Source of the DNA: Candidatus Raymondbacteria bacterium RIFOXYA2_FULL_49_16
Lineage (GTDB): Bacteria > Fibrobacterota > OXYB2-FULL-49-7 > XYB2-FULL-49-35
DNA: 40,268 nucleotides
Direction of reading: 5' to 3'
Assembly: GCA_001789205.1 (NCBI GenBank)
Contig: MFYT01000018.1
Location: 1-40,268 of the forward strand
Shown here in pieces: positions 28,074-30,410 of the stretch. Below the pieces are notes generated by a model. That model did no database searches, was not told the DNA's origin, and was given only the letters and a program-made list of their open reading frames with translations. The position numbers and the translations under genes were made by a program. Numbering within the stretch: the stretch's first letter is position 1; each line of letters starts with the position of its first letter.

Positions 28074-28199
<126 letters not shown>

Positions 28200-29309: not shown

Positions 29310-29407
29310 TGAAATGCCGCAACATCAAAGGCATCTGTTACATGAAGATCAACCTTTCTCCCGAGGCTATTATTGCAGTAAACACACACCAACAATTCCG
29401 AACTTCT

Positions 29408-29478
29408 GCGGCCGCGCGGAGGCGGCCGCCTAATCTATGTTTTTGTTTCTATTGGAGCGAGGCCAGAGACGGCTTCGC
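29408..29478. repeat. REP-like hairpin doublet, left copy
   Basis: Hairpin 1 is GCGGCCGC-GCGGAG-GCGGCCGC (29408-29429). A 31-base spacer follows with CTAATC at its start and TATTG at positions 21-25. Hairpin 2 is GCGAGGCC-AGAGAC-GGCTTCGC (29457-29478), which lies within the last codons of the transposase. The same layout appears inverted on the other side of the gene. Confidence 0.75.
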
Positions 29479-29896
29479 CGGTCTTTCTCCACCCAATCTT
29501 TCCGTATGGGGGTTCAGCCCAATAGGGCCATTCCTTCCATATGGACACCAACCCGGCCCGCTCCGGATTCCATAAAACATATTCCATCACTTCAGATTCT
29601 CCCTTTTCGCTGTTTATTTCCTTCGGCAAATACCGCTCCTGCCAAAGCTTGCCCTTCCACCCGTGTTTCCAAGATTCATGCGTCGTAAACGATTTCCATC
29701 TGTCTACGACACTCTTGGTTTTTTCGAAAACTCCGTCAACGCACAAGTGCAGGTGGTTGGGCATAAGGCAAAACGCGTGGATGACAATTTTTTTCTCTGC
29801 GTGGCATTTCATAAGATTTTCACAGCACATTAATGCTAATGGTGTAATGAGGAACGGTTTTGTATTCTCGAACGAATGGATATTGTAATGTATCAT
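29435..29896 (-). CDS. REP-associated tyrosine transposase (RAYT)
   Basis: This 153-residue protein belongs to the IS200/IS605-related Y1 transposase group, RAYT branch. The HUH motif is AFCLMPNHLHLCV with H48 and H50; the nucleophile is probably Y106 in MEYVLWNPERAGLV, which matches the RAYT Y-x-x-NPVRAGLV block. RAYTs cut and join single-stranded hairpins of REP elements and are mostly single-copy and domesticated. The frame is intact with the usual length. A GGGA site lies upstream. Inverted hairpin doublets flank it, the arrangement expected for a RAYT with its own REP substrates. It sits inside the remains of the older tRNA-integrated element. Confidence 0.88.
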   Translation of the reverse strand: MIHYNIHSFENTKPFLITPLALMCCENLMKCHAEKKIVIHAFCLMPNHLHLCVDGVFEKTKSVVDRWKSFTTHESWKHGWKGKLWQERYLPKEINSEKGESEVMEYVLWNPERAGLVSIWKEWPYWAEPPYGKIGWRKTGEAVSGLAPIETKT

Positions 29897-29914
29897 CTAT
29901 TCTGTTCCCAACAA

Positions 29915-29987
29915 CCGGGCCGTCTCTGGCCCGGCTGAAACAATAAAACCAGTACCCACGATTAGTCGGCGGCCTCCGCGCCGCCGA
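29915..29987. repeat. REP-like hairpin doublet, right copy (inverted)
   Basis: Hairpin 2' is CCGGGCC-GTCTCT-GGCCCGG (29915-29934). A 31-base spacer with the complement of CTAATC and TATTG at the same positions as in the left copy leads to hairpin 1', TCGGCGG-8 bases-CCGCCGA (29966-29987). Stem bases differ from the left copy while pairing is kept, and the loops match (AGAGAC and GCGGAGGC read on the minus strand). Confidence 0.75.
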
Positions 29988-30410
29988 AACTCAATCGCGA
30001 AGGTACCATAGTTTTTGCACGGTCACACGGAGGCGGTCTCCTTACAGTCGGCTTACTTCTCCCCCTCCACAATCGTTGTGAATGGATAGCCATGTGCCCT
30101 CCTTAAAAACTTGATATCAAAACTAATATTGTTCGGATGTTATAGCAACCGATACGTAATCCTGGCTCCATGGGGAAAATATAGCGTCTTGCTATGCCCA
30201 TGCCAAGGCAAGGCTAATTGTGAAAGAGAACGGGAAGGTTTGAGACCGTACCTTGCTTTGTTGATTATATTCCCCCACGTTTTTTGTGCAACCCCCTGCA
30301 AAATGGTGCATAAATCAGCAAAATCATAAAGTCATAAAAACCCATATAAACACTTGATTCTGCAATAAGATGCAAAGGCTTGCTTTACAGTACGATATTT
30401 ACCTGGTTGA
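29988..30410. other. Gene-poor stretch inside the decayed element
   Basis: No credible gene is seen in these ~420 bases. A 72-codon plus-strand frame (30111-30329) has an unconvincing, cysteine-rich composition and no family signature. The segment is AT-rich and is probably decayed element sequence. Confidence 0.6.

Follow-up and report, generated by a model that had tools for sequence, protein, structure and literature searches.

The RAYT-like gene in the window (the whole stretch of 40,268 nt that was analysed, C18:1-40268 of the source genome G000 of 5.43 Mb in 112 contigs) is framed by inverted hairpins. The question was whether gene and hairpins form one unit, in which the transposase acts on its own substrates, and whether gene-less copies of these hairpins occur elsewhere in the genome. 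All feature coordinates are listed in Table 1.

The RAYT unit and its paralogue

Two hairpin doublets were located at 29408-29478 (+) and 29914-29987 (-), inverted around the ORF at 29435-29896 (-), as the sequence-only reading had proposed. Both copies consist of hairpin A (8-bp stem, loop GCGGAG), immediately followed by CTAATC, then TATTG at 20 nt from hairpin A, and finally hairpin B (loop AGAGAC). Both hairpins were formed in both copies upon single-strand DNA folding, and the inverted-repeat arms were 46 nt (76% complementary) and 18 nt (89% complementary) long. The two ends (29404-29495 and 29906-29994, reverse strand) were aligned end to end with a 3-nt gap required, the spacer between A and B measuring 27 nt at the left and 30 nt at the right end (8-bp stems counted at both hairpins). 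The earlier claim of an identical 31-base spacer is therefore wrong; the equal offsets of CTAATC and TATTG from hairpin A, the identical loops and the compensating paired changes in the stems were borne out by the alignment. The sequence GCCAGAGACGGC, with at most one mismatch, was found window-wide only at the two doublets (0.17 expected). A tRNA-Met gene (28074-28147) lies to the left of the unit at a distance of about 1.3 kb, and near it an ORF fragment ending in QGLEPWTSGL was seen on the other strand.

The product of the gene (RAYT 1) contains a Y1 domain with the HUH motif and the catalytic Tyr (NHLH, YVLWNP). It scored 28 bits against PF01797 (Y1_Tnp), above the cut-off, and 72 bits against NF047646 (NCBIfam REP_Tyr_transpos), which is below the equivalog cut-off of 80 and still the best NCBIfam model; the IS200 model gave only 14 bits. 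The top PDB match was TnpArep 4er8 (E 4e-6), and an AlphaFold prediction from a two-row alignment reached a pLDDT of 37, too low for use. Hairpin B of the left doublet does lie inside the transposase ORF, as had been noticed, but in the last codons of a C-terminal tail, past the conserved family match, which stops at aa 126; RAYT 2 has no such tail.

This paralogous RAYT 2 (C18:57296-57709, - strand; 51% aa identity over 137 aa) was found 28 kb off in the same genome, in a unit spanning C18:57220-57791 that likewise carries inverted doublets. Its upstream doublet reads TAGGCAGC-GCAGAG-GCTGCCTG-TTAATC...GCCGAGCC-AGAGAC-GGCTCGGC; downstream, hairpin A recurs with the loop GCAGAG, together with a hairpin B that has decayed. 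DNA similarity between the units is confined to the stretch from the outer border of one hairpin A to the other hairpin A, the flanks being unrelated (about 1 to 1.5 kb compared), in support of hairpin A as the boundary of the unit. For hairpin A to lie by chance no more than 60 bp from each of the four RAYT gene ends, a probability of about 2e-13 was calculated (30 copies in 5.43 Mb).

The motifs of RAYT 2 are altered (DHLH, WR, YVLFNS vs. NHLH, WQ, YVLWNP in RAYT 1), and RAYT 1 is thus the likelier of the two to be active. Identities of the two genes by codon position (64/75/40%) suggest past purifying selection on the paralogues; saturation of synonymous sites precluded a dN/dS estimate. 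In each of the two units, hairpin B closely precedes the start codon (window 29896-29935; L009 1878-1912), and in unit 2 it is directly followed by a ribosome-site-like AAGGA; it could therefore damp RAYT translation.

Table 1. Positions of the features described in the text. Plain numbers are window positions; positions headed by a C number refer to G000.
Feature	Position	Strand	Remark
Unit 1 in full (580 bp): inverted doublets around the RAYT gene, hairpin A at both borders	29408..29987	-	Alignment; homology to unit 2 (C18:57220-57791) confined to this stretch
Left hairpin A, stem GCGGCCGC/GCGGCCGC, loop GCGGAG	29408..29429	+	
CTAATC, conserved foot (other strand: GATTAG 5' of hairpin)	29430..29435	+	
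RAYT-like Y1/HUH transposase ORF, 153 aa; motifs NHLH, LWQ, YVLWNP	29435..29896	-	PF01797, NF047646, PDB 4er8
Left hairpin B, loop AGAGAC	29457..29478	+	Overlaps ORF 3' end (non-conserved tail)
Right hairpin B, loop AGAGAC	29914..29935	-	About 17 bp upstream of ORF start
CTAATC foot of right copy (GATTAG on +)	29960..29965	-	
Right hairpin A, stem TCGGCGGC/GCCGCCGA, loop GCGGAG	29966..29987	-	
Class 1 units	C9:77425-77582, C11:2238-2377, C49:27029-27165, C78:15484-15624, C6:61621-61739		
Class 2 units	C100:18134-18398, C9:33614-33879, C26:68127-68344, C11:13747-14005, C48:39103-39288		
Single halves	C71, C97, C98 (two), C101		
CTATCTATTACCCA at intron-like junctions	L073 (C11:2216), L075 (C34:6633), L076 (C39:36128), L077 (C71:114126), L080 (C48:47815)		

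Dispersed copies, covariation and distribution

Statements on the whole genome are based on searches of G000 plus fetched stretches. A plain search with CCAGAGACGGC gave 6 matches vs. 4 for the reversed control; since single loop motifs were uninformative, structure-based models were used. The covariance model R1 of the doublet, built from three sequences, detected 29 doublet-like places at E<0.1, most of them as inverted pairs. R2, a model of hairpin A alone (21 sequences), detected 30 copies at E<0.02, the next score being E=2.8; 29 of them are firm and are distributed over 17 loci. The weakest R2 match, at C2, is doubtful, with a position inside a long ORF and a differing loop. Two CCAGAGACGGC matches without a hairpin (C21, C73) were discarded, and weak R1 matches at C69 and C110 were treated as chance. 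The further copies that had been set as a test of the sequence-only reading were thus found at modest scale, together with the likewise flanked second RAYT; about 30 hairpins at 17 loci is a low number for a REP family. Most copies of hairpin A form RAYT-less inverted pairs between long ORFs, and the units are intergenic, with ORFs touched only at their ends, by slight overlaps, or where the ORF is short and spurious (as judged from ORFs, not annotated genes).

Covariation was evaluated in alignments assembled by hand from R1 and hairpin-scan copies. With copies found by structure and related ones counted more than once, so that the counts lean towards structure, two-sided (compensatory) changes occurred in 8/8 stem pairs of hairpin A (97% of cells paired) and in 5/7 pairs of hairpin B, with conserved loops in both. 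The hairpin-A score was reached by no shuffle, and slid controls were at least 4.8-fold lower, which argues against hand assembly as the explanation of the hairpin-A covariation.

Both halves were present at 10 gene-less loci, single halves at 5. Class 1 units follow the plan A-B-B'-A' with four hairpins in 119-158 bp, equivalent to the RAYT ends joined, and the unit at C6 is 14-16 bp away from each of its neighbours. Class 2 units (186-266 bp) contain A, a different inner palindrome in the place of hairpin B, and an inverted A at the far end. The conserved foot is GATTAG/GATTAA (GATTAR), not GT[AG]G. The combination of loop GCGGAG with CTAATC is shared by both ends of RAYT 1, C11a, C78 and C71, that of GCAGAG with TTAATC by both ends of RAYT 2 and C49. 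As the ends of each unit match in loop and foot and dispersed copies share the exact combinations, this descriptive pattern suggests cognate RAYT-REP subfamilies. The loop ACAGAG occurs mostly in class 2, and no living RAYT partner was seen for it.

No close relative of RAYT 1 was found in 168 phylum genomes (own genome included) at E<=1e-12, the subfamily being present in its own genome only, and R2, run with stricter filters, gave no hairpin A at E<=0.001 in 150 other phylum genomes. Within these sets, the RAYT subfamily and hairpin A occur in one and the same genome; as its order is represented by a single further genome, absence in near relatives is weakly tested. A RAYT of this subfamily without the doublets, the outcome set to refute the sequence-only reading, was not seen, with the one genome out of 168 offering hardly any test of it. 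Two scans of genome contigs and one viral scan yielded no RAYT 1 relative; plasmids contained distant relatives only, with identities of up to 40% over 57%.

MITE envelopes

Several units are enclosed by one of three element types with unrelated terminal repeats, 14-21-bp TIRs and 9-10-bp target duplications. C11a and C78 lie within CTATCTATTACCCA inverted repeats with the 10-bp duplications CCCTCAGAAC and CATTGCCACC. C100 and C9b lie within GGGTGCAGGACAGGGTTTGCA-type repeats, with the duplication AACAACACA at C100 and none clear at C9b. Repeats of the CAGTAGTGTCCGGTTAAA type enclose C26 (duplication ATTCGTTTT) and C48 (AAAACTAAT), and C11b, C98 and C101 were assigned to this type by similarity. 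TIR and target-site duplication were thus both present at C11a, C78, C100, C26 and C48, where the REP cores form the interior of ordinary MITEs. Neither TIRs nor target duplications were found at RAYT 1, RAYT 2, C9a, C49 and C6. Inspection by eye revealed no DDE transposase ORF (parent IS) at C27, C28, C34, C39, C48 and C97. Since one REP core is common to three unrelated envelopes and is also present without an envelope, we infer that the cores may have preceded the MITEs and have been carried later by DDE transposases.

Two further observations were made on these elements. MITE ends of the GTGTCCGG type with a degenerate hairpin A (G000:C63:9628-9694, G000:C97:113664, G000:C28:11908) suggest an old element family. 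CTATCTATTACCCA repeatedly adjoins an apparent group II intron domain V/domain VI junction (domains assigned by eye), as if the element preferred this junction or travelled with the intron.

Interpretation and comparison with known systems

TnpAREP binds single-stranded REPs, of which it reads the loop, the stem and a 5' tetranucleotide foot, and it cleaves and joins REP ssDNA, cutting at dinucleotides (PMC8266576). The unit described here would consist of a RAYT gene (IS200/IS605-related, Y1/HUH) between inverted cognate REP-like ends, each of them a doublet. Of the two hairpins of an end, the outer one (A, with the GATTAR foot) is probably what the enzyme recognises and cleaves; the inner one (B) would be accessory and may be regulatory. 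Most likely, hairpin A is bound as single-stranded DNA, e.g. in the lagging-strand template, with the foot guiding the choice of the cleavage site. Under the guide model for TnpAREP (PMC8266576), a TTAG foot would direct cleavage to CT and a TTAA foot to TT. The strand 5'-GATTAR-hairpin A is the probable substrate, as a conserved foot common to both RAYT units exists on this strand only. Cleaving its own hairpins in this way, the RAYT would mobilise, or would once have mobilised, the dispersed gene-less inverted-doublet units (REPIN-like, with four hairpins), some of which may have become cores of DDE-type MITEs and been copied on by hitch-hiking. The locus is probably a REPtron, similar to a TIRtron, with low-copy REPINs of its own that were spread in part on MITEs.

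Evidence against this reading comes from the TIRs and duplications of several dispersed units, which point to DDE transposases for the last moves, and no empty site or close relative was seen that shows RAYT-driven movement. The foot other than GT[AG]G, the low copy number, the NCBIfam score below its cut-off and the different inner palindrome of class 2 units also count against it. The hairpin units could be interiors of TIR-bounded, DDE-spread MITEs, in which the RAYT genes landed or by which they were captured, with no action on the hairpins; at about ten loci one of the three TIR types is present, and at five of these the 9-10-bp duplications are clear. We consider this quite improbable in view of the loci without TIRs or duplications, both RAYT units among them, and of three unrelated envelopes around a single core whose exact edges bound both RAYT units. 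Furthermore, class 1 units repeat the A-B plan of the RAYT ends, and constant loops with compensating stems are the selection expected from a hairpin-reading enzyme. Another alternative is that the hairpins function in RNA, where they would insulate genes as terminators or as stem-loops that stabilise mRNA, and adjoin the RAYTs incidentally. Strong stems and the intergenic position of most copies near gene ends, best seen at C6, would fit such a role. It is nevertheless very improbable: hairpin A is not followed by a T-run, termination needs neither a conserved foot nor a conserved loop, and the inverted pairing and the association with both RAYTs would be left unexplained.

A somewhat unlikely alternative, which accepts the association of RAYT and REPs, is that the system was once active and is now a relic, with copies surviving by vertical descent and MITE hitch-hiking only. 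The low copy number, the 49% divergence of the paralogues, the changed motifs of RAYT 2 and the decay of hairpin B beside RAYT 2 and of the ends at C63, C97 and C28 are in favour of this. RAYT 1 argues for an enzyme that may still be active, with an intact frame and all motifs kept, and so do the codon-position identities.

The preferred reading as a REPtron was compared with published systems. RAYTs flanked by inverted REPs are known (Nunvar 2010, PMC2817692), and the unit resembles such REPtrons (PMC2817692; Quentin 2018, PMC6006769) in its Y1/HUH gene, the inverted REP-like hairpins at both ends, the dispersed intergenic copies and the apparent matching of REP and RAYT subfamilies. It differs by a GATTAR foot where GT[AG]G is canonical, by two different hairpins per end and by about 30 copies vs. 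more than 100. Within the TnpA-Y1 family, subclass 2.6 and class 3 have "atypical secondary structures" and no GT[AG]G (PMC6006769); they share the non-canonical foot and flanking hairpins copied in the genome, but the published hairpins are weaker than the strong 8-bp GC stems found here. The RAYT 1 motifs NHLH and WQ fit subclass 2.6, a match by motifs, whereas the Tyr motif is YVLWNP instead of YIH[QN]NP. IS200/IS605 (subclass 1.1) has ends that are not mutual inverted repeats and a Y---Q motif (PMC6006769), unlike the inverted-repeat ends and YVLWNP of the present unit.

TIRtrons (TIRYTs) are described as RAYT-like genes within long TIRs that are unrelated to GTAG REPs and in some cases double-palindromic (Di Nocera 2013, PMC3733652). 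By that description they are similar in the RAYT-like gene without GTAG REPs, the long double-palindrome inverted repeats and the dispersed copies, often dimers; dispersed copies inside DDE-type MITEs set the present unit apart from what is described there. REPINs (Bertels and Rainey 2011, PMC3116915), in which two inverted REPs are separated by a spacer and linked to a RAYT family, resemble the gene-less units in this plan and in the ability to form one long hairpin, in compensatory changes, and in pairs outnumbering single halves; the units found here differ by two local hairpins per half, four per unit, at the sizes given above for each class. Bacterial MITEs share the TIRs and target duplications of some units and differ in that the interior here is a RAYT-type REP unit and the RAYT loci have no TIRs. 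Because it lacks the GT[AG]G foot and its NCBIfam score lies below the cut-off, the unit was filed as a variant that works like a REPtron/TIRtron and not as a canonical member.

Other RAYT-like genes were noticed in G000. Canonical GTAG REPs of the "double-foot" kind (GTAGGGGCGGGTTTCAAACCCGCCCCTAC) flank one of them (L010, G000:C107:14791-17970), where the hairpins lie at 1361-1393 and 1847-1877, so that canonical and non-canonical REPtrons coexist in this genome. Near or inside another (L016, G000:C15:57701-60859), a palindrome GTAGGGGTTC...GAACCCCTAC at 1726-1763 recalls the in-gene REPs of subclass 2.4.

The locus adds a RAYT/REP pair from a lineage in which the subfamily was found in 0/167 other phylum genomes. 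With its non-GTAG foot, two-hairpin ends and two paralogues with matching ends, it offers a natural test of whether a RAYT reads the foot, the loop or the second hairpin. The MITE-embedded copies are a concrete case of low-copy REPINs possibly persisting and spreading without a RAYT of their own. It is possible, as a tentative proposal, that units of RAYT recognition hairpins were adopted as cores of three unrelated DDE MITE types, one palindrome being spread by both HUH (single-strand) and DDE (double-strand) enzymes; if true, such units would bridge REPINs and TIR MITEs in evolution.
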